Source: Spirochaetales bacterium
Lineage (GTDB): Bacteria > Spirochaetota > Spirochaetia > SZUA-6 > RPPD01
Length of the DNA: 64,000 nt
Assembly (NCBI GenBank): GCA_016929065.1
Contig: JAFGJO010000043.1
Span: 124,001-188,000 of the forward strand
Reading direction: 5' to 3'
In this document: one piece after another, positions 5,153 to 35,737 of the stretch
Layout of the letters: each line of letters starts with the position of its first letter
Numbering within the stretch: the first letter of the stretch is position 1
Notes under the pieces: model-generated
Told to the model about the DNA's origin: nothing
Seen by the model: the letters and a program-made list of their open reading frames with translations, nothing else
The model's database searches: none
Translations under genes and position numbers: made by a program

Positions 5153-7081
5153 TTACATTTCGAAATAGGTATAGCCGTTCATCCCTTCTTCATATGCCTT
5201 GATGATATCCCGGCGTTCGTTCGGGGAAATCAGCTTGCGTCTGACCGCTTTCTCCACCATTCCCTTGAAGTCTTCAACAAGTTCTTTCGGTGCGTATTCG
5301 ACATAACTGAGTACATCCGAAACCGAATCACCGTCAATTTCCTTCGAGTAAATTACCTCGTCATCTTCATCAAGGCGGATACTGATGACATGGGTATCAC
5401 CGAACAGATTATGCAGATCCCCCAGAGTCTCCTGGTATGCGCCGATTAAAAACACGCCGAGATAATATTCCTCGTCTTCAATAAAAGGATGGAGCGGCAG
5501 AAAAGATTTTACATCATACAGGTCCACGAATTTGTCGATCTTCCCGTCACAGTCACAGGTTGTATCAGCAATAATCGCCGAAACCGAGGGCTTTTCCTTG
5601 AGCCTGTGCAGCGGCATGATGGGAAACAGCTGGTCAATCGCCCAGCTGTCGGGAATCGACTGGAACACACTGAAATTTCCATAATAGATGCTTACCATTT
5701 TTTTCTCGAGGTCCTGCAGCTCCTCGGGAACGAATCTGAGTTCTTTCGCGCACTGGGATATCCTCAACAGAATCTGCCAGAACAACTGATCGGCAAGGCC
5801 ACGGGTTTTCAAGTCTATTTCCCCGGTTAAAAACATATCACGCGCATCGTCACGGTAATACAGTGCATCATGGTACATCTCCTGCAGGTTTTTGACCATA
5901 ATCGATTTATGAACTTCCCTGAGGTTCACCAAAAGTTCATGCGCATCCTCCGGCAGTGATATGTCCAGGTCCGGTGAATAAAAATTATTGACATCCAGAA
6001 TATTGAAAATAAGAACCGACGAGTATGCCACCAGGGATCTTCCCGATTCCGAAACAATCACCGGATGCGCAATGTTCGCTTCGTCCATTGCACCCATAAC
6101 CACATCGACCACATCCGAACAGTACTCGCTGAGACTGTAGTTTTTGCTGTGGGCAAAATTGGTCTTTGACCCGTCATAGTCAACGGCAAGTCCGCCGCCG
6201 ATATCCAGGTATCCCATGGGTGCGCCCTCGGCGGCGATTGAGGTATAGTATCTGCAGGCCTCGGTCACCGCCGAACGGATGCTTTTTATGTCCGGGATCT
6301 GCGACCCAAGGTGGTAATGCAGCAATTTGAGACAGTCGATCATCCCGTCTTTTTTCAGGACCTCTATTGCCTCAAGGATCTGGCTGGCCGTGAGCCCGAA
6401 TACCGACAAGTCTCCTGCAGATTCCGCCCATTTGCCGCCGACTGTCGAGGAAAGCTTGACCCTCAACCCGATATTCGGCTGAATACCCAGTTTTTTTGAA
6501 CGTGCGATGATCGTTTTGAGTTCTCCGGGCCGTTCAATGACAATAAACACATTCAGCCCTATTTTTTTTCCGTATAACGCGAGATCAATAAATTCTTCAT
6601 CTTTATATCCATTGCAGACAATCAGGGCATCCTTTGACCGAACATAGGCAAGGGCCACCATGAGCTCGGCCTTGCTGCCTGCTTCGAACCCGTGTGAATA
6701 CCGTTCTCCAAACGAAGAAATATCCTCGATGACCTGTTCCTGCTGGTTCACCTTGATGGGGTACACCCCGCGAAAAGACCCCTTGTAGTTGTATTCCCGC
6801 ATCTTTTTCATGAAGTTCGTATTGATATAGGATATCCGTTTATGGAGGATGTCTTCAAAGCGCAGCAGAACCGGCATCCCGATCCCGCGGTCCCGTATTC
6901 CCTGGACAATTTCAAAAAGGGACACTTCCACCTCTTCTTCTTTTCCCTGAAGCAAAGCAGCCAGTTCTCCGTTTTTTTTCACCTTAAAATACCCGCGGCC
7001 CCAGTTATCGACTCCATAGAGATCTTTGGAATCCTGAAGGGTCCAGGATTTTATTTCACGGCTTTTACTCAATGCATTCAT
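5153..7081 (-). CDS. speA: Biosynthetic arginine decarboxylase
   Basis: A 642-residue enzyme, the normal length for the SpeA family (alanine-racemase fold, PLP-dependent). It converts arginine to agmatine, the first step of the agmatine route to putrescine and spermidine. The PLP lysine lies in VYPIKVNQQ (Lys110). Also visible are FEAGSKAEL, HYHLGSQI, the phosphate-binding DIGGGLAVDYDG and the C-terminal active-site cysteine in TTCDCDGKID. The start ATG is followed at once by family sequence (SWTLQDSKDLYG). AT-rich sequence with overlapping TATAAT-like boxes lies 20-50 nt upstream. No agmatinase or other polyamine gene is adjacent. Confidence 0.95.
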   Translation of the reverse strand: MNALSKSREIKSWTLQDSKDLYGVDNWGRGYFKVKKNGELAALLQGKEEEVEVSLFEIVQGIRDRGIGMPVLLRFEDILHKRISYINTNFMKKMREYNYKGSFRGVYPIKVNQQEQVIEDISSFGERYSHGFEAGSKAELMVALAYVRSKDALIVCNGYKDEEFIDLALYGKKIGLNVFIVIERPGELKTIIARSKKLGIQPNIGLRVKLSSTVGGKWAESAGDLSVFGLTASQILEAIEVLKKDGMIDCLKLLHYHLGSQIPDIKSIRSAVTEACRYYTSIAAEGAPMGYLDIGGGLAVDYDGSKTNFAHSKNYSLSEYCSDVVDVVMGAMDEANIAHPVIVSESGRSLVAYSSVLIFNILDVNNFYSPDLDISLPEDAHELLVNLREVHKSIMVKNLQEMYHDALYYRDDARDMFLTGEIDLKTRGLADQLFWQILLRISQCAKELRFVPEELQDLEKKMVSIYYGNFSVFQSIPDSWAIDQLFPIMPLHRLKEKPSVSAIIADTTCDCDGKIDKFVDLYDVKSFLPLHPFIEDEEYYLGVFLIGAYQETLGDLHNLFGDTHVISIRLDEDDEVIYSKEIDGDSVSDVLSYVEYAPKELVEDFKGMVEKAVRRKLISPNERRDIIKAYEEGMNGYTYFEM

Positions 7082-7164
7082 CCTCGCTTTTATCTGTATA
7101 TTATAATGTTATTATACTCTATCAGGTATTTTATACATACCATTTTTTTTATCGTAAAAATAAA

Positions 7165-7638
7165 TCAGGACCCTTTACAGACCTGCTCGTAATAAAAAAT
7201 ACAGTTTTCCTGATTCTGCCCCTGAATTGATCCCGGCCGATGCTTCCGCACGGTCTGAATGGCTTGAAGAGCTGAAGAACCGCGTGCGACCAGAAAGCAG
7301 GCGATAATTGTTCCTGTCCGGCCGATTCCTGCATAACAATGCACCGCCGTGGCAATATGTTTCGAGGCCATGTCTTCCAGAAACGCAACAGCCTGCCCTG
7401 TCTGGGACATCGAGAGTGCAGTAAAGTCCCTGACCGGAATATGGCAATATGCCATAGTGAACTCATTGAGCGCCAGGGCAGGCAGCCGGTCTTCTGTAAG
7501 CGTGAGAATGGCCCCGATTCCTGCTATTTTTACAAATTCAAGGTCTTCTGAAATACTGTGATATTTTCCGGGCAAAGCCATGCCTGCGATAACCCCCGGA
7601 ATTACATAACTGAAATTCATGGAATCATTGGTTGTCAT
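7165..7638 (-). CDS. Dual-specificity / tyrosine protein phosphatase
   Basis: A 157-residue single-domain phosphatase of the DSP class. The P-loop is HCYAGIGRTG with catalytic Cys101 and Arg107, and the general acid is Asp71 in the loop HIPVRDFTA. It hydrolyses phosphate from protein tyrosine, and possibly serine/threonine or another phosphorylated molecule; the substrate is unknown. It is divergent from xseA. No Shine-Dalgarno is seen; a TATAGT box lies 11 nt before the ATG. The protein has no signal peptide and is probably cytoplasmic. Confidence 0.85.
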   Translation of the reverse strand: MTTNDSMNFSYVIPGVIAGMALPGKYHSISEDLEFVKIAGIGAILTLTEDRLPALALNEFTMAYCHIPVRDFTALSMSQTGQAVAFLEDMASKHIATAVHCYAGIGRTGTIIACFLVARGSSALQAIQTVRKHRPGSIQGQNQENCIFYYEQVCKGS

Positions 7639-7704
7639 AATGAAAAAAGACTATACAGGAAATGGTCACATTGGGGAAGAGTTTATCGATCCCCCTCTTT
7701 CTTC

Positions 7705-7733
7705 TTGCAACTGATCCGGGAAACGTGTAATCT
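7705..7733 (+). promoter_or_regulatory. Candidate promoter of xseA
   Basis: TTGCAA, 17-nt spacer, TAATCT. The -10 ends 11 nt before the xseA ATG, leaving a predicted leader of about 4-5 nt and no ribosome-binding site. Confidence 0.4.
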
Positions 7734-7744
7734 GCTCCTATACT

Positions 7745-8971
7745 ATGAAACTGAACATCCCGACAGAAAAGTGTTTTTCAGTAACAGAAATCACTTCAAT
7801 CATACAGTCCATGCTCGAGGACAGCTTTCCGGTGATTACGGTAGAAGGTGAAATTTCCAATTTCCGGCCGTCGAGTACCGGGCACCTCTATTTCAGCCTG
7901 AAGGACAAGGATGCCCTGCTCTCTGCGGTCATGTTCAAAAACAGATCTCTCTCCCTTCGGCTCACACCAAAGGACGGGATGCTCGTAAAAGTCCGCGGCA
8001 GCATATCGGTATACGCAAAACGTGGAAGCTATCAGATTATCTGTGAAGAAATGACGCTCGCCGGTGAGGGCGATATCCTTGCCATGCTTGAAGAGCGCAA
8101 GCGCAGACTCGCCGCCGAGGGCCTGTTTGACAGTGACCGCAAAAAAAAGCTGCCGCTCCTGCCGGGCAGGATTGCGGTGATCACCTCTCCCACTGGTGCA
8201 GCCCTGCGGGATATCCTGAATGTTCTGGGACGCCGGCATGCCGGCCTTCATGTTGTCATTCTCCCCGCCGCGGTCCAGGGCGAGGAAGCCGCCGCACAGA
8301 TTGTACGGCAGATACGCACAGCGAACGAGTTTGACATGGGTGATGTGATTATTATTGGCCGGGGCGGCGGCTCTTTGGAAGACCTGCTCGCCTTTTCCGA
8401 TGAAGAAGTGGTCCGGGCAATCGCCGAATCCCGTATTCCGGTAATCTCTGCAGTGGGACATGAGACAGACACATCGCTCTCTGACCTCGCTGCCGACCTC
8501 CGGGCGCCCACCCCGTCTGCCGCAGCCGAAATGGTCACCGCGTCCCGGGAAGATCTGTCACGGCGCGTTGCTGAACTTGCCGAGACCCTTTCCTGGAGCC
8601 TGTCGCAAAAACTATCAAATCTGCGGCAGCGGCTCGAATACCGAACATGCCAGCATTTTGAACGGGAATACCGCGGTTTTCTGCAGCCGCTGCTGCTGCG
8701 GGTCGACGATGCAAAAGAGCTCATGCTCTACAGCATGAAAGACGCATTGCTGAAAACACGTCACCGTTTCGCACTATTGGTGAACACGATCGAGGCAAGC
8801 TCTCCAAAGCAGATTCTGAAACGCGGATTTGCAGTCGTCACCGACACCGATTGCGGAAAAATCCTTACTGGGACAAAACAGACAAAACCAGGACACAGCC
8901 TGTCCATTTCATTATATGAAGGAACCATCATTGCAGAGGTAAAGGAGACCGATGACCATGCCGGCATTTGA
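7745..8971 (+). CDS. xseA: Exodeoxyribonuclease VII large subunit
   Basis: A 408-residue XseA. With XseB it degrades single-stranded DNA to acid-soluble oligonucleotides. An N-terminal OB-fold (about residues 8-105, VEGEISNFRPSSTGHLYFSLKD) is followed by the catalytic domain with IGRGGGSLEDLLAF, SAVGHETD and LRAPTPSAAAE, and then a coiled-coil C-terminal part that binds the small subunits. The last 20 nt overlap xseB. The start codon has no Shine-Dalgarno, and a promoter ends just upstream. Length is slightly short of the E. coli protein but normal for the family. Confidence 0.95.
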   Translation: MKLNIPTEKCFSVTEITSIIQSMLEDSFPVITVEGEISNFRPSSTGHLYFSLKDKDALLSAVMFKNRSLSLRLTPKDGMLVKVRGSISVYAKRGSYQIICEEMTLAGEGDILAMLEERKRRLAAEGLFDSDRKKKLPLLPGRIAVITSPTGAALRDILNVLGRRHAGLHVVILPAAVQGEEAAAQIVRQIRTANEFDMGDVIIIGRGGGSLEDLLAFSDEEVVRAIAESRIPVISAVGHETDTSLSDLAADLRAPTPSAAAEMVTASREDLSRRVAELAETLSWSLSQKLSNLRQRLEYRTCQHFEREYRGFLQPLLLRVDDAKELMLYSMKDALLKTRHRFALLVNTIEASSPKQILKRGFAVVTDTDCGKILTGTKQTKPGHSLSISLYEGTIIAEVKETDDHAGI

Positions 8972-9191
8972 AGACAAACTTGAACGGCTCGAGGAAGTGA
9001 GCGAACAGATCCGCGAGGGCGAAATCTCACTTGAAGAGAGCATAAAACTCTTCGAAGAAGGAATTAAACTGGCGAAGATGCTTGAAAAGGAGCTTTCAAA
9101 AATAGAACGAAAAGTTGAAATATTATTAAATCAGCCGTCCCCGGACGCTCCACCCCAGATGGATCTGTTCCCTGAGAATGAAGAAGAATAA
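8952..9191 (+). CDS. xseB: Exodeoxyribonuclease VII small subunit
   Basis: A 79-residue XseB, the usual size. The family core FEDKLERLEEVSEQIREGE...SLEES is followed by the second helix IKLFEEGIKLAKMLEKEL. It binds in several copies to the coiled coil of XseA. Its start lies inside the 3' end of xseA, where AGGAGACCG precedes two nearby ATGs (8952 and 8958); either may be used. The arrangement implies translational coupling with xseA. Confidence 0.95.
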   Translation: MTMPAFEDKLERLEEVSEQIREGEISLEESIKLFEEGIKLAKMLEKELSKIERKVEILLNQPSPDAPPQMDLFPENEEE

Positions 9192-9394
9192 ACCGTTGGG
9201 GGAAAAAAGAATATACACTTCAAATTCCCGTTTGGTCATCCGGGCGTACACCGATGGATCCTGTCTAATTAATTTTATTGCACGGCAAGACAAATATTAA
9301 AAATAATATTTAAAACAATTTACACACCGAATTACAATAGAATGGTATAAAGGGCAGAGTCCCCCTTTTCACTTCTTCTGTGTGTTGCCGGGTG

Positions 9395-22100: not shown

Positions 22101-22739
22101 TTACTTGTCCACACCGCCTGCAAAATCCTGAACACAATTTGTCCCATACTCTTTATGCGTTCGAATACCAATCCCAACATAGCGAAACTCTTTGTTCAAA
22201 ATATTTTTTCTGTGTCCCCTGCCGGGAACTTTCTCATCGATGAGCAGTGATACCACGATATCCTTTACATCGAAGCTTCCATAGGAACAATTTTCTCCTG
22301 CCGTATAAAGCCATTTTCCGTGCCGGCCAATACGCGTCTGCATACTTGAACCGTCAGTACCGGTATGGCCGACTTTTCCCTTCAATCCCATATCCGTTGC
22401 ATGGTCTTGTGCGGCAAGGGCGAGTGTTTTTGATGGTTTCAGGGGAGGAAGGGGGGTCGTCTTTTGCATGACATTATAGCATTCCTCCCCGTCCTTTGTC
22501 CTGCGATAGGGAGAAATATATTTTTCTGCGAAACCCTTTGGATCTTGTCTGGCAAGGTTAAGGAAATATACGACATCCTGTTCTTTTTTTGACATATAAG
22601 AGACATTTTTTGCAGTGTCCGGGTCTGCATTCAGGTCATTTTCTGTAACTGGCGGCTGTCCGGTTCCCACACCCGGAATGATAACAATGCAGGAAAGGAG
22701 AAAGAATGAGAATGTGATGATAATCAATTTTCTTTTCAT
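22101..22739 (-). CDS. CAP (SCP/PR-1-like) domain lipoprotein
   Basis: A 212-residue protein with a lipobox (FLLSC) and a bacterial CAP domain from about residue 60. Landmarks are VVYFLNLARQDPKGFAEKYI, LALAAQDHATDM, GHTGTDG, ENCSYG, the catalytic-like cleft motif GHRKNILN and the final YGTNCVQDFAG. Bacterial CAP proteins are secreted; some bind lipids or cleave proteins, but the role is unknown here. I start at ATG 22739 behind GGGGAG; the longer frame is unsupported. Confidence 0.85.
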   Translation of the reverse strand: MKRKLIIITFSFFLLSCIVIIPGVGTGQPPVTENDLNADPDTAKNVSYMSKKEQDVVYFLNLARQDPKGFAEKYISPYRRTKDGEECYNVMQKTTPLPPLKPSKTLALAAQDHATDMGLKGKVGHTGTDGSSMQTRIGRHGKWLYTAGENCSYGSFDVKDIVVSLLIDEKVPGRGHRKNILNKEFRYVGIGIRTHKEYGTNCVQDFAGGVDK

Positions 22740-22841
22740 AATAACTCCCCAATAGATTGTTTTCTGGTGAATGATAAAACTATAATCGCCACAAAAATAT
22801 TTTGCAAGTTTTAAACTGCCCAAAAAAAATATGCTGAATGC

Positions 22842-22869
22842 TTTTCATTTTGGATATTTGCATTATACT
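22842..22869 (+). promoter_or_regulatory. Candidate promoter of the 22897 lipoprotein
   Basis: TTTTCA, 16-nt spacer, TATACT; leader about 21 nt with GGAGG. Confidence 0.4.
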
Positions 22870-22896
22870 ATAAAGTAAAATAATGCGGAGGTTGTA

Positions 22897-23475
22897 ATGA
22901 AGAAACTTTTTCACCTTATGCTTGTCATGCTTTTTTTTGCCGGATGCAACACTTTTTATGCGGCAATTGATTCTGGAGGAGACAATGTTTTCGAAAACAA
23001 TATGGTCGTCGTTGAAAAAAAAATACAACCGCTCCAGGTAGATTTGAAAATTACAAATAAAAGCGATAAAGACATCGAAATAGTATGGGATAAATGTGTC
23101 TATGTGGATTTATCCGGAGAATCCTATAAAATTGTTCACAGTCATGTACAATTCACGGAAGACAAACAGATAATCAATCCCCAAACGATAATCAAACCAA
23201 AAGAAACGCATTCCGATTTTTTACTGCCAATTGCAGCAATAAAAAATCTGGAAAAAAGCCATGAACGAAAAATAATGATGTGGGCAACGCATCACGAGAC
23301 CGTCAATCAAATATACAAAATCGGGGATGACATAGATTATAGAAATGAAAGCGCACTCAAAGATCTGATTGGCAGGGAATATAAAATATATCTGGTCGTT
23401 TTAAGCGGTTCTGACGAAAAGACTCTGGAATTAAAAGGAAAACTGACAGAGATAATCGATTTATTAAACAATTAA
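22897..23475 (+). CDS. Lipoprotein, function unknown
   Basis: A 192-residue protein with a lipobox (LFFAGC). The mature part has sandwich-like strands: VDLKITNKSDKDIEIVWDKCVYVDLSGE resembles an immunoglobulin-like or FxLYD-type repeat that recognises 'additional' surface partners. The C-terminus contains YKIYLVVLSGSDEKTLELKGKL. No enzymatic motif is seen. Start: ATG after GGAGG. It diverges from the CAP protein; the region between holds both promoters. Confidence 0.65.
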   Translation: MKKLFHLMLVMLFFAGCNTFYAAIDSGGDNVFENNMVVVEKKIQPLQVDLKITNKSDKDIEIVWDKCVYVDLSGESYKIVHSHVQFTEDKQIINPQTIIKPKETHSDFLLPIAAIKNLEKSHERKIMMWATHHETVNQIYKIGDDIDYRNESALKDLIGREYKIYLVVLSGSDEKTLELKGKLTEIIDLLNN

Positions 23476-26033: not shown

Positions 26034-27104
26034 TTACAGCGGTATCCCCCTGAGCCTGCTCAAGATGATACCGCTGTCTCCTATACAATCGCTTGCATCA
26101 CACACCACAATGATCAATTTATTGCCGTAGCTGCCAGCCGCAATAAACCCTTGTGCAACCCAGCGGGGGGTGGAACCGTCATACTCAAGGCCGTTTTCGG
26201 GGGGAAGCATCACCGCGTCACCATGAAAAAAAGGCCCATTAATATTTATATGATTCCCTTCAGGATCAAGCGCAACGTTATGCTCGAGTGTTGTTCCATT
26301 TAAAAAAATACCGCACGCGTCATTAATACTGTCTATGGATTCAGGATATTCCTCGGATCCAAAAACATATTCAAGGCATATTCCATTGTAGCCGGAGGCC
26401 AGGTCAAAGGTGATTTCAAACCAGCAGGAGTCGTTCGATCCATAGGGAGCAGTTAATAAACTACATAAAGAATTTCCCGGCTCATTAAGCATGGAACTTT
26501 CGCATGTGGAATCATTTGGCGGCAATGCATTCACCGCCAAACCGTTTGTCAGGATTACGCCGTTTGACAGGCCCTTTCCGCCGGCCACGATGCCGCATTG
26601 ACCTGTGGATGCATAAAGGCTGACGTCTGTTATGGTTATTCCGCTATACGGCACAACCAAAGCCTGTAATAGATACTCAGCTTGGTCTTCTGGAGTAATG
26701 GTAATGCCTTCGCACACAATGGTGACGACATATTCCTGTTCAGTTCCGTCTTCGGCTCTGATTGTATAGGTGACGGGATTTGTAAAATCAGCGGCAGTCG
26801 TTCTGCTTGTTTGTTCCACCCCGTCTATATATGCGGCAACTCCTGTGGAAACAAAATGTGCAACAAGCGAACTTTGATAAATGCCTCCGACGGGGACATA
26901 TACTGTAATATTCTGTCCTTCTATTTCTCCGGTAAGATTTTGCAATAAAAATCCACCATTATCTTCAGCTAAGAAAGAAAAATATGTCATCTCTTTTTCA
27001 GTAGAAGCCACCGGCCCTCCGGTATTTCCGTTGATGGTGCAGGCGTGAAAAATCAAAACAACAAAGGGCAGTAAACACCCGACATTTCTTGTCATTTTTT
27101 TCAT
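26034..27104 (-). CDS. Lipoprotein with DUF5018-like and choice-of-anchor L domains
   Basis: A 356-residue protein with a lipobox (LIFHAC). Residues of about 35-125 are a DUF5018-like sandwich (MTYFSFLAEDNGGF, VTYTIRAEDGTEQEYVVTI). From about 140 on it matches the choice-of-anchor L domain: LLQALVVPYSGITITDVSLYA, SNGVILTNG, NSLCSLLTAP, CLEYVFGSEEYPESI, NDACGIFLNG and the end GDSGIILSRL. Such domains are found on secreted adhesin-like proteins. Start: ATG 27104 after AGGAGG. A strong promoter lies about 70 nt upstream. Confidence 0.8.
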   Translation of the reverse strand: MKKMTRNVGCLLPFVVLIFHACTINGNTGGPVASTEKEMTYFSFLAEDNGGFLLQNLTGEIEGQNITVYVPVGGIYQSSLVAHFVSTGVAAYIDGVEQTSRTTAADFTNPVTYTIRAEDGTEQEYVVTIVCEGITITPEDQAEYLLQALVVPYSGITITDVSLYASTGQCGIVAGGKGLSNGVILTNGLAVNALPPNDSTCESSMLNEPGNSLCSLLTAPYGSNDSCWFEITFDLASGYNGICLEYVFGSEEYPESIDSINDACGIFLNGTTLEHNVALDPEGNHININGPFFHGDAVMLPPENGLEYDGSTPRWVAQGFIAAGSYGNKLIIVVCDASDCIGDSGIILSRLRGIPL

Positions 27105-27176
27105 GCTATTGTACCTCCTGTTTTGAAATAAATGTTCGAAACAGCATCTTTCAACATCATCCACCTCTTGTGTTCC

Positions 27177-27612: not shown

Positions 27613-27984
27613 TCAGAAACTGATATCCAGCACCGATATCACATTAGATGGATCATGATACACCACAGCCGTCAGAGTACCGGTATTTCCTCCATCCCGG
27701 TATTCACACTCCATGGTAATCTTGTATCCAGCGACCACCTGCTCCTTCGCGGAAAGAACCGAAACAAGAAATATTCCCTGATGGGTTTTCGCCATTTCCT
27801 GTTTCAGAAACTCAAATGACACTTTAACCATATCCGCTTCAGAAGTAATTGGTTTACTGCCGCCGTCAGCATCCAAAGCAATATCCGCACCGTCTGAAGG
27901 ACCGGAGTCCGGCCCTCCGGATGTCGCGCATCCGAAGGACAGAACAGCAACAAGCAATATAAATATAAAAAATATCTTTTTCAT
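27613..27984 (-). CDS. Cystatin-like lipoprotein (probable cysteine-protease inhibitor)
   Basis: A 123-residue lipoprotein: lipobox LSFGC with Cys19, a Gly/Asp-rich linker, then one cystatin domain. The domain shows all three cystatin contact regions in order. These are a Gly-Gly pair at 41-42, the helix MVKVSFEFLKQEMAK, the first hairpin AKEQVVAG (82-86 is the QxVxG signature) and a later strand LTAVVYHDPSN in the place of the PW loop. It is closest in form to plant-type cystatins, which inhibit papain-like C1 proteases. The start ATG (27984) has AGGAG 8 nt upstream; a second ATG at 28002 overlaps the stop of the upstream C1 protease gene (TGATG). Translational coupling is likely. Confidence 0.75.
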   Translation of the reverse strand: MKKIFFIFILLVAVLSFGCATSGGPDSGPSDGADIALDADGGSKPITSEADMVKVSFEFLKQEMAKTHQGIFLVSVLSAKEQVVAGYKITMECEYRDGGNTGTLTAVVYHDPSNVISVLDISF

Positions 27985-28001
27985 TCCGGTCACTCCTGAC
28001 A

Positions 28002-30218
28002 TCAGTTGTCTGGATCGGCGGGATTCCAGTCTGTCCCTTCCTTGTACCCGACTACGGTCTGGGCATGATTCGTGTCCATTATTGCTGCGGTATTGTCATC
28101 AATTACATCATTGGAATCCAGGAGGGCATACAGGGAAACACCGTCACCTGTTGTTGACGCATCAACAGAGGTGCTGACACAATAGCCCGCAGCAAGCAGT
28201 GATTTCAGGAGATAGATATCGCCGTAATCATAAATGATAAAATAGCCGACCGGACGATATGCCCAGTAATGATTTCCTACCTCCCGGCCTCTGTACCGTC
28301 CGGCTTCCCGCCACGCTGCCTTGGAAGGCCATGTTGTGTGATCAGAAGTATTGTACGGCATTGCTGCCCAGGTTGCTCCGCCGACCTTTATAATCAAGGC
28401 GGACGCAGCCTGGCCGTTTGACCCGTCATCAGTTCCGGAATTAATCTGGTGGTAAATGAAGTCAGGGCTGAAAATCCTGTTCAGATTACTGTCAGGTCTT
28501 CCTCCGCTGCTTAATCCTGACGGATCTGTATATAACCAGGAGGTGCCGCTCATATCCCAGTTTCTTTCACGTGCTTCCGTATAGGTTTGAATATAATACG
28601 CAAAAGAGAACGCGGTACAGGATCCTTCAGATCCCTGACTGCCTATGGGCGGGAACCAGATTGTATCGGAATTATCCACACTGGCGGGCAGTAGGCCACG
28701 GTCATTGGAACTGGATACACTTCTTAATTTGACCATATTGTTCCACTGTTCTTCTGTCGGGGGAGCATCTCCGGTGCCCATTCCGTTTACAATAATATTG
28801 TAATTGCGGCCGGGAACATATACGCCGGCGCTGGCCATGTCACGGGCCAGTTCTGCTGATGTCGGTTTCTCTTCGGTGAATGATACGCCGAACATATCCG
28901 CTCTGTCATTGGGCTGAATGACCGCCAGTTCTTCCGAGTTAAGTCTTCCTGCTGTGGAAGCAGTCAGAACAAGGGTGCTGCTTGAAGGGATTGTTCCGGT
29001 TGTTCCGTTTATTGTTTTAAAAGGACTCTCGTCATAATCATAGTAAAATTCCAGAGAAAATGAGCTGACAGAACCGGTGGTGGTTCCGACATTTTCTACG
29101 GTCATAAAAATATTATAATCATTGATATACTGTGCAAATTCGGAAATATCCAGCACAATATCGTTGTTGGGGAATGGAAAATGTCCGGAAACACTGCTGG
29201 AGAAGAATTTATTGAACTGTTTTATCATCAGGGGAGCAGAAGGGTTTCCCAGTCCAATGGTGACCAGGCATTCATCCCGGTAATCATGGTTGATATCAAA
29301 AACTGCAACTATTGTCGGTTCATATTCAGAGGAAAAATCATTATAGTAGTACCGTATCGGCATTTGCTGCTGAATCATGGTTTCATAGGTAACCCAATAA
29401 TGGCCGTCATGAACATTCTCCCAGCTGCCGCCTACACCCCAGGAATTAATAAATTTAAACGCTCCTGAATCCGGCACAGAGGTGTCAACGATGGTAAATT
29501 CGGCGACATCCGCGGGACGCGTCGCGTTATTGGTTTCCAGCAGTTCAGTAACAGCACTGTTGGAATCCACGATACAGCCGACATAGTAAACGCCGGGAGT
29601 CAAAGACGGGACAACGAAATCATCATCTGCACTGTATGGACGGACATATTCCTGTCCGGCTGTTGCGGTATACGGCCAGTTATAATCCAGAATTATGGTA
29701 TCTGCAGAGGTGATAATTTTGTCATTGGAAATGTAAAAGGCAATATTATAGGAAGTGCTGTAGCTGTTGGTATCTCCAATATTGGAAAATTCAGTCCGCA
29801 CACCCAATGTTTCGCCCGCTTCTCCGCACAGGAGATCAGTCCAGTTATCGGTTCCCACATAGCATTTACCGGGAATCAGGTCCGGCCCGGTCAGAAGACT
29901 TACCGTTCCCAGGAATGCGGAATCGGGAATATCATTAATCTGGCGGACATAGACAACATCACCATTGGAAAAGAATACATCCACCACAGATGATCCGCAA
30001 TCCGTCCAAACTGCCCCGTTGTTCAGACTGTATTCCATGGTATTGGAGACATTGAGGATCTGGCCGGCCGCAACATCCATGTACGCCGATGAGACATCAC
30101 CCACAACAGCAGGGCCGGTCACCCCGTCGGGGATTCCGCCGCCGGAAGGGGAGCCGCACCCGGTGAATACCAGGATTGCAATACTTAAAAAGTATGATGC
30201 TGTTTTCTTAAAACTCAT
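28002..30218 (-). CDS. Lipoprotein with CARDB and papain-like (C1) peptidase domains
   Basis: A 738-residue protein: lipobox (LVFTGC), a CARDB-type adhesion domain at about 110-250 (TEFSNIGDT...YISNDKIIT...NNATRPADVAEFTI), a second sandwich domain to about 420, and a C1 peptidase domain from about 500. The oxyanion Gln and catalytic Cys534 are in IGSQGSEGSCTAFSFAYYI; the catalytic His718 is in NHAQTVVGYKEG. The protein then ends 20 residues later, without the conserved NSWG segment holding the third catalytic residue. The start ATG follows CGGAGG. Its stop overlaps the first ATG of the cystatin-like gene. The pair looks like a surface protease with its own inhibitor. Activity is uncertain because of the short end. 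Confidence 0.85.
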   Translation of the reverse strand: MSFKKTASYFLSIAILVFTGCGSPSGGGIPDGVTGPAVVGDVSSAYMDVAAGQILNVSNTMEYSLNNGAVWTDCGSSVVDVFFSNGDVVYVRQINDIPDSAFLGTVSLLTGPDLIPGKCYVGTDNWTDLLCGEAGETLGVRTEFSNIGDTNSYSTSYNIAFYISNDKIITSADTIILDYNWPYTATAGQEYVRPYSADDDFVVPSLTPGVYYVGCIVDSNSAVTELLETNNATRPADVAEFTIVDTSVPDSGAFKFINSWGVGGSWENVHDGHYWVTYETMIQQQMPIRYYYNDFSSEYEPTIVAVFDINHDYRDECLVTIGLGNPSAPLMIKQFNKFFSSSVSGHFPFPNNDIVLDISEFAQYINDYNIFMTVENVGTTTGSVSSFSLEFYYDYDESPFKTINGTTGTIPSSSTLVLTASTAGRLNSEELAVIQPNDRADMFGVSFTEEKPTSAELARDMASAGVYVPGRNYNIIVNGMGTGDAPPTEEQWNNMVKLRSVSSSNDRGLLPASVDNSDTIWFPPIGSQGSEGSCTAFSFAYYIQTYTEARERNWDMSGTSWLYTDPSGLSSGGRPDSNLNRIFSPDFIYHQINSGTDDGSNGQAASALIIKVGGATWAAMPYNTSDHTTWPSKAAWREAGRYRGREVGNHYWAYRPVGYFIIYDYGDIYLLKSLLAAGYCVSTSVDASTTGDGVSLYALLDSNDVIDDNTAAIMDTNHAQTVVGYKEGTDWNPADPDN

Positions 30219-30646: not shown

Positions 30647-31507
30647 CTATTTTTTCTTTTTCATGGCATCAACAACTGCGAGCTGGGCCTCGATTGAACC
30701 AAATCCTTCGAATTGTTTCAATGCCTCTATTTTATTTCTCGCAGCCTGTGTCCATTCGGTTGTCTTGATCCCTTTTGCTTCCTTTCGTTTGAAACCTGCA
30801 TAAAAATAGAAAATTGCATGGAGTTCATCAACGGTGTACCCGGACCAAAGATCCTTGATATCTTCTTCACCCTCATAAAATTTCAATGCTTTTCCGGTGG
30901 TAACAAGCTCCTCAAGTTTTTTCTGGGTATTTATCAGTCTTTCTTTGTCTTCCGGAGAACCCAGTTTGTATATTTGAGGGGTTCCGGGTTCGGGGATGAC
31001 AAATTCCCCCAGATAAATCACGTCGCCTGGTTTGTCAACACTAAACATCACCGGATTCCCGCTAAAAGGTTTTTTTTCTTCATTACTGTTTTCATGCCAG
31101 AGCAATTCTTTGAATACATAGGATCCTGTTGGCAGGTTCTTTGAAATCCTGAATTGTGACAGAGGGTATTGCCCGCTTACATCAGACGGCTCAAAAATGA
31201 GAAAGCTTTCTTTTGTTTCGGTGTTTTCAACAAATACTTCAAAGCTTGTTCCTGTGTAGGTATCGTTTCGGGTGTTTAGTGCACCGGATTGGGTGATAAA
31301 ACAGTTTTCAAACCCTTCGCGTCGGGCATAACTTGTGGTTGATCCAATGTACATGATCACTATTGATGTGTTTGGTTCAATTTTATCCGGTACGGAACGC
31401 GCACTGTTATAGGCAACAAGATTTGCAACAGCCATTATTCCGCTGCAGCCCATTACGAAAAGCATCAAACAGATAAAGAGTATGATAATTATCAAATTTT
31501 TTTTCAT
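30647..31507 (-). CDS. Lipoprotein, function unknown
   Basis: A 286-residue protein with a lipobox (MLFVMGC). The N-terminal half is strand-rich (TSIVIMYIGSTTSYARREG, FEVFVENTETKESFLIFEP, FRISKNLPTGSYVFKELLW) and resembles proteins that bind or display extracellular ligands. The C-terminal part is helical and lysine-rich. The family is not recognised. Start: ATG after AGAGGTATTTTT. Confidence 0.6.
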   Translation of the reverse strand: MKKNLIIIILFICLMLFVMGCSGIMAVANLVAYNSARSVPDKIEPNTSIVIMYIGSTTSYARREGFENCFITQSGALNTRNDTYTGTSFEVFVENTETKESFLIFEPSDVSGQYPLSQFRISKNLPTGSYVFKELLWHENSNEEKKPFSGNPVMFSVDKPGDVIYLGEFVIPEPGTPQIYKLGSPEDKERLINTQKKLEELVTTGKALKFYEGEEDIKDLWSGYTVDELHAIFYFYAGFKRKEAKGIKTTEWTQAARNKIEALKQFEGFGSIEAQLAVVDAMKKKK

Positions 31508-34948: not shown

Positions 34949-35347
34949 ATGTATCTCTTCAAATCTGTATGGGCCAGGATGCTTCTCTCTCTCTACTTTT
35001 CCGGCACAATTAGTTTGTCAGCCGTGATCGCGAAGGGCATTTCCGCAGAATCATATCCTGCATATTTATATGAGCTGCTTTTCCCGGCAGGGATTATGAC
35101 CGCTGTCCATTTTATCATCTACCTGGTTATTCTGAAAACAGAAAAACCAACGCATTTCATCACCGTGTTCTCGCTGGGCAGTGCCCTGATTATCCTGAGC
35201 ATTATCGCCATGAACATACTTCTGTTCCACGACTGTATCCGCTGCGGTTTTCATTCAGCCGCCGCCCGTGATAATAACTCCCCACAGATTTCTATTGTCA
35301 TCGGGGATATCAGGCCCGTAAACCGCCAACACATATATCCGCGATGA
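34949..35347 (+). CDS. Small membrane protein with three helices
   Basis: A 132-residue protein with three hydrophobic segments (LLSLYFSGTISLSAVIA, LLFPAGIMTAVHFIIYLVIL, FITVFSLGSALIILSIIAM) and a hydrophilic tail. The tail (from FHSAAARDNN) overlaps the opposite-strand lipoprotein gene by 93 nt and may be the result of a lost stop codon. The promoter just upstream and the membrane pattern support a real gene; there is no Shine-Dalgarno. No family is recognised. Confidence 0.55.
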   Translation: MYLFKSVWARMLLSLYFSGTISLSAVIAKGISAESYPAYLYELLFPAGIMTAVHFIIYLVILKTEKPTHFITVFSLGSALIILSIIAMNILLFHDCIRCGFHSAAARDNNSPQISIVIGDIRPVNRQHIYPR

Positions 35348-35737
35348 ATTTCCGCTTTGCGAACAGGTCTTTATGACAATAATATTCAAACCGCTATCAA
35401 GAGAGATGGGGGCAGATGTTTCCCCTGATGCAACAGGACTATCATTAATAGTGATGCTCGTTCCTTCAAAAACCGATGCAGGTGTGATGGTTATGGAAGA
35501 AAGGGGCTCCTCCGATTCAAGTGAATAGTACACTGTCTCCTGGTCGAAAACCGGCGAAAGGGAGCCTTCCGACACCTCGAGCGCCGAAAGATTCACATTT
35601 TCAACCGGGATGATGCTCTCATCATTACCGGAATCCAAAATGTCACATGCAAGAAAACTTGTTGGAATGAAGATACAAAATAACAGTATATGTTTTAGAT
35701 AAAAAAATATTCTCATTATAAAGAGGAAGTGTTTCAT
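35255..35737 (-). CDS. Lipoprotein with cadherin-like beta-sandwich domain
   Basis: A 160-residue protein with a lipobox (TSFLAC). One cadherin-like beta-sandwich (PF12733-type) domain covers the rest: LSALEVSEGSLSPVFDQETVYYSL, ITITPASVFEGTSITINDSPV, LDSGLNIIVIKTCSQSGNSSRIYVLAVYG. In other bacteria this domain is repeated in surface proteins; here there is one copy, ending in a Gly tail. Start: ATG 35737 after GGAGAACACC. Its last 93 nt overlap the 3' end of the convergent membrane-protein gene. Confidence 0.75.
   Translation of the reverse strand: MKHFLFIMRIFFYLKHILLFCIFIPTSFLACDILDSGNDESIIPVENVNLSALEVSEGSLSPVFDQETVYYSLESEEPLSSITITPASVFEGTSITINDSPVASGETSAPISLDSGLNIIVIKTCSQSGNSSRIYVLAVYGPDIPDDNRNLWGVIITGGG

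Follow-up and report, generated by a model that had tools for sequence, protein, structure and literature searches.

Can a bacterium hold one of its own papain-family (C1) proteases in check with a cystatin? The question is raised by two neighbouring genes, P0001 and P0002, lying in a 64,000-nucleotide stretch of a Spirochaetales genome, hereafter called the window. The published view leans towards a negative answer: Kordis and Turk (2009; PMC2784779) described bacterial cystatins as rare and restricted to a few genera (Vibrio and others), with spirochaetes having stefins only, in Brachyspira, and judged it unlikely that bacterial cystatins control the bacterium's own C1 enzymes. Dedicated inhibitors encoded beside papain-fold proteases are nevertheless known: the staphostatins, Spi, and Bfi/Bti of Bacteroides (PMC3462683). 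Here we argue that the locus probably encodes a membrane-tethered papain-family protease with a circularly permuted chain, together with its own cystatin inhibitor.

The two reading frames of the original prediction exist, both on the minus strand (Table 1), and so does the TGATG string through which they were said to overlap, but this string is probably not the true start of P0002. The alternative frame that it opens (27613-28002, minus strand, 129 aa) has in the sequence no ribosome-binding site for its ATG at 28002, whereas the ATG at 27984 is preceded by AGGAG 8 nt upstream (27993-27997) and lies 17 nt beyond the P0001 stop codon. The genes are therefore most likely 17 nt apart and not overlapping, a spacing consistent with a single transcription unit. 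Both proteins start with lipoprotein-type signals (...VFTGC in P0001, with the lipobox ending at residue 21, and ...LSFGC in P0002); judged from these signals both are presumably lipidated, which would anchor the pair either at the bacterial surface or on the periplasmic side. More lipoprotein genes flank the pair, at 22101-23475, 26034-27164, 30647-31507 and 35255-35737 of the window; named by eye and not by profile, 22101-22823 looks SCP/CAP-like and 26034-27164 choice-of-anchor-like.

Table 1. Coordinates in the window of the two genes and of their recognizable parts.
Feature	Position	Strand	Evidence or remark
Protease gene P0001	28002-30218	minus	open frame, 738 aa, GGAGG ribosome site 5' of ATG
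CARDB domain, N-terminal stalk, residues 133-233	29520-29822	minus	Pfam PF07705, E 7.5e-6
NSWG, Asn258 (counterpart of papain Asn175), ahead of catalytic Cys	29436-29447	minus	invariant in 15 permuted proteins
Beta-sandwich domain, residues ~285-400	29019-29366	minus	alignments and model strands
Internal segment, residues ~446-520	28659-28883	minus	matches N-terminal pro-region of ordinary-order L086 and L087
QGSEGSC, Gln528 and catalytic Cys534 (papain Gln19, Cys25)	28617-28637	minus	invariant in 15 permuted proteins
Catalytic His718 (papain His159), motif NHAQTVVGY	28065-28067	minus	invariant in 15 permuted proteins
Spacer between P0001 and P0002	27985-28001	minus	17 nt, carries AGGAG ribosome site
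Cystatin-fold lipoprotein gene P0002	27613-27984	minus	123 aa; start at 27984 most likely
Gly41-Gly42, counterpart of cystatin N-terminal wedge glycine	27859-27864	minus	both Gly invariant in alignment A4
Lone long helix of cystatin fold, residues 51-67	27784-27834	minus	AlphaFold2 model
QVVAG, residues 82-86, first cystatin hairpin loop	27727-27741	minus	Gln82 and Gly86 invariant in 11 homologues

The assignment of P0001 to the C1 peptidases, already proposed in the original prediction, is borne out by the presence of QGSEGSC, NHAQTVVGY and NSWG in its sequence. The Gln, Cys, His and Asn of these motifs are those of the C1A family and are invariant across 15 aligned proteins having the same chain order. 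The Pfam profile Peptidase_C1 (PF00112) gives no match above cut-off with P0001 alone; it matches 6 of the 15 permuted proteins at E <= 0.01, and the match of L008 covers profile positions 1-175 of 220, the Asn end being absent from it. When the family profile was searched against the PDB, C1A-type peptidases only were returned. The Asn half with the beta-domain of P0001, searched alone by sequence, matched nothing in the PDB, so that the assignment of this part depends on alignment to full-length relatives. An AlphaFold2 model of P0001 (pTM 0.89, pLDDT 85) had xylellain, procathepsin L and papain as its top Foldseek matches; as Foldseek works in sequence order, each of its alignments can cover just one of the two sides of such a permuted fold. 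The active site Gln-Cys-His-Asn, the profile and the predicted fold are common to P0001 and to the known C1A enzymes (papain, cathepsins K/L, xylellain). P0001 is thus a C1A peptidase by homology, active-site residues and predicted papain fold, though not by chain order, which makes it a variant of C1A. Since standard family profiles miss P0001, similar enzymes have probably been left unannotated.

Described C1A members run Cys-His-Asn. In P0001 the motifs come as Asn258, then Gln528/Cys534, then His718, and the chain stops 20 residues beyond this histidine; the Asn-Cys-His order was seen in all 15 aligned permuted proteins and Cys-His-Asn in all other relatives examined. Writing each relative twice raised its local alignment score with P0001 in 7 of 7 ordinary-order relatives (in one example from 484 to 741, the 388 aligned residues including 184 identities); the doubling of permuted controls never shifted the score by more than 2. 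P0001 shares ~45% identity with ordinary-order archaeal relatives, in an alignment unbroken across their old N- and C-termini, and the ancestral N-terminal pro-region (SAELEALKNKIGVYEAGQNYSQLVDGYGTGMFPPTENEW in L086) aligns to residues ~450-490 of P0001, in the middle of the chain. The beta-sandwich domain comes after the Asn strand in permuted and ordinary-order relatives alike. These computations show that P0001 is a naturally occurring circular permutant of a C1A peptidase, in which the ancestral order pro-region, Cys...His, Asn strand, beta-domain has become Asn strand, beta-domain, pro-region, Cys...His. The cut falls between the His and Asn strands, all catalytic residues were kept, and the N-terminal stalk domains sit behind the lipobox. 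The original prediction had missed this rearrangement. The two other C1 lipoproteins encoded in the window genome have the ordinary order.

Permuted papain-like families are known elsewhere, but in the 2023 classification the papain/cathepsin cluster is canonical (PMC10318531). LRAT, YaeF/YiiX (C92), PPPDE (C97) and LupA also have permuted papain-like folds and belong to other families (PMC10318531, PMC3142127), and in the NlpC/P60-type permutants it is the Cys helix, sometimes together with the first strand, that is shifted to the C-terminus, a cut different from that of P0001. Our search of the open-access literature found no report of a C1A circular permutant.

Could the unusual order come from a misassembly, or P0001 be a pseudogene? 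Many of its relatives are from metagenome-assembled genomes, and the frames of L066 and L167 are broken. Yet the order and the new termini alike recur in at least 19 loci (counting the window, and leaving out repeats and a broken copy in G408), distributed over Spirochaetota, Riflebacteria, Thermotogota and Cloacimonadota; moreover, the active-site residues are invariant and the model is confident. Recurrence in four phyla rules out a chimeric or misassembled P0001, and we regard this explanation as a whole as extremely improbable. In the broken loci (L066:236-2471 and L167:922-2819, the latter from G408) the permuted C1 frame is split into two ORFs, for which sequencing error and decay are indistinguishable.

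The permuted order was collected from several surveys. A phylum-level survey gave three permuted relatives. Scanning 84,980 species genomes returned 14 permuted loci, L065-L077 and L101, from Spirochaetota, Riflebacteria, Kosmotogales and Cloacimonadota; L068 has two genes, and some of these loci had already come up in the phylum-level survey. A survey of chain order contributed G407, two loci in G409 and the broken copy in G408. In the tree, 15 of 16 permuted sequences form a single branch (84/97), L101 standing separately on a long branch; a single origin of the permutation was neither established nor rejected (AU p 0.21). Ordinary-order relatives with the same beta-domain (L078-L119) are common in Bathyarchaeota, Thermoplasmatota and Methanomassiliicoccales and scattered in bacteria, an occurrence which suggests transfer between domains.

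Turning to P0002, the cystatin signature first noted there is present, its elements following the cystatin order (Gly-Gly, helix, QVVAG, second hairpin). P0002 alone scores 13.9 bits against PF00031, below the cut-off of 22.2 (E 0.066), but 6 of 8 members of its family match this profile at E <= 1, the best relative at 2.9e-4. A profile of eight homologues gave 43 matches in the PDB, 41 of them cystatins or cystatin-derived proteins (best 7.2e-7). The AlphaFold2 model, built from four sequences, has a core pLDDT of ~95 and the order beta-alpha-beta-beta-beta-beta, that is, the cystatin helix-wrapped sheet, and Foldseek matched it to cystatin C, chicken cystatin and tarocystatin, each with a probability of 1.00. 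The profile and fold checks proposed with the original prediction have thus both turned out in its favour, the former at the level of the family. A chance match of QVVAG is ruled out by family conservation and fold, and the computations show P0002, by its family profile and predicted fold, to be a cystatin-superfamily lipoprotein; with the family I25 cystatins and stefins (cystatin C, tarocystatin, bacterial cystatins) it shares the fold, the N-terminal glycine and the QVVAG loop. For P0001 and P0002 alike, each below Pfam cut-offs when taken alone, the family assignment comes from family profiles and models; a search of the pair against NCBIfam gave no match.

In its second hairpin P0002 has YHDPSN, and the Pro-Trp pair of type-2 cystatins is absent. 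This pair is found in type-2 cystatins only, the stefins being devoid of it. A solo homologue in G166 (L161:8262-8714) has both QVVAG and a second-hairpin QPW, its loops being nearer to those of animal type-2 cystatins. The missing Pro-Trp bears on another possible role for P0002, that of a folding helper, a tether or a substrate-presenting partner of the protease instead of an inhibitor. Such a role would agree with the loss of inhibition in many vertebrate cystatins (Kordis and Turk 2009, PMC2784779) and with the QNVGG or QHVGG that two solo homologues carry at the loop. It is quite unlikely in our opinion, given that conservation is highest in the inhibitory elements (the Gln and Gly of QVVAG are invariant, and Gly42 is nearly so among 11 homologues).

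Whether the inhibitor would be directed at the neighbouring protease was approached through gene pairing. The genome survey proposed with the original prediction did find conserved C1-cystatin neighbours: in ten Spirochaetota loci a cystatin gene adjoins a C1 protease gene. Searches of this phylum starting from the cystatin gave 12 loci, 7 of which adjoin a C1 gene (the window, G096, G286, G164, G190, G077 and G407; the G164 protease is incomplete, ending at a contig edge), and a scan starting from the protease gave three further pairs (L065, L066 and L068). The protease is permuted in half of the ten pairs, and the cystatin gene lies downstream of the C1 gene in eight and upstream in two. In L068, tandem permuted C1 genes (5899-7530 and 7610-9319) precede a single cystatin gene, which shares 28 nt with the second of them. 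The tree, which covers the paired proteases except those of G164 (truncated) and G407, places them on three branches far apart. Outside the window, adjacency holds for 6 of 11 loci, far above chance (by a rough estimate ~0.2% per locus, if a genome of some 3,000 genes holds a few C1 genes). Of the three C1 genes in the window genome, the permuted one has the genome's only cystatin gene next to it. Five cystatin homologues have no adjoining C1 gene (G133, G075, G166, G409 and G411). Conversely, a cystatin gene is absent from the permuted-relative genomes G420 and G422-G427, which belong to Riflebacteria, Thermotogota, Cloacimonadota and, for G422 and G423, spirochaetes. These genomes rule out that every permuted relative is accompanied by a cystatin, and indicate that the permuted enzyme can do without one in some bacteria.

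The solo homologues agree with the proposal made for bacterial cystatins by Kordis and Turk (PMC2784779), according to which the cystatin guards against foreign cathepsin-like proteases of a host, a protist or a competitor; the neighbourhood would then merely co-regulate attack and defence, and lipoprotein signals could put P0002 within reach of outside enzymes. Such a guard is unlikely here, since 7 of the 12 loci that were found without recourse to the protease adjoin a C1 gene, in three lineages and in both orders, and the one cystatin of the window genome is located at a protease. Pairs that involve three lineages of protease and either gene order are best explained by a dedicated inhibitor of the cell's own protease.

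For this dedicated inhibitor we propose the following mechanism. Both proteins would be lipidated on the same membrane face, P0001 held by its N-terminal lipid through the stalk domains and P0002 anchored alongside. The Gly-Gly N-terminus, the QVVAG loop and the second hairpin of P0002 would enter the active-site cleft of P0001 and block it reversibly, sparing the cell from digestion before substrate contact or activation. The permuted layout, with stalk and anchor at the N-terminus and the pro-region internal, would let the enzyme remain attached. Ordinary-order archaeal relatives have an N-terminal pro-region and a C-terminal stalk, so that the enzyme stays on its stalk when the pro-region is removed. 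If the ordinary order were combined with an N-terminal anchor, the same removal would presumably free the enzyme; the permuted enzyme may thus keep its lipid anchor because an internal pro-region, once removed, no longer detaches it. More generally, though with less assurance than for the locus itself, we lean towards a C1A circular permutant existing in four phyla, with an internal pro-region and an N-terminal lipid tether, whose control in spirochaetes is exerted by a dedicated adjacent cystatin.

Staphopain/staphostatin, SpeB/Spi and Bacteroides C10/Bfi-Bti likewise combine a papain-fold protease with a small co-encoded dedicated inhibitor, and Bfi/Bti are sometimes lipoproteins, as P0002 appears to be. 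Their proteases belong to C47 and C10 and are unpermuted, whereas P0001 is a permuted C1A enzyme. Staphostatins have a lipocalin-like fold and Spi is unrelated in sequence, while P0002 has a predicted cystatin fold, by which it is not of the staphostatin/Spi kind (lipocalin-like fold or kinship with the protease pro-region). Our search for a description of a bacterial cystatin-C1 operon in the open-access literature gave none. If our interpretation is true, bacteria possess an endogenous cystatin-protease control pair; the pair runs counter to the published opinion that cystatins of bacteria leave the cell's own C1 proteases unregulated, and with two genes the question becomes directly testable. 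The protease is also of interest for fold topology as an experiment made by nature, in which a papain-family enzyme was opened between the His and the Asn strand and joined via its old termini; it is useful for understanding how chain order governs pro-region control and membrane anchoring.

Some further observations concern the surroundings of other C1 genes. In G096 and G286, a conserved neighbour lies upstream of the pair (L055:3038-3397 and L057:7055-7417), a rhodanese-like lipoprotein named by eye. In the window genome, the gene immediately preceding one for an ordinary-order C1 lipoprotein encodes a different lipoprotein of 143 aa (L001:835-1266, on G000:C62), and a relative of it (5.5e-21) is likewise upstream of an ordinary-order C1 gene in G412 (L181:6833-7366); this family could be a second kind of C1 partner or inhibitor. 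Finally, the ordinary-order spirochaete C1 proteases of L001, L055, L057, L181 and L185 end in several copies of an FFD(S) motif (e.g., KEEQEKFFDSKEEQEKFFDS), which may serve as a tail for sorting or binding.
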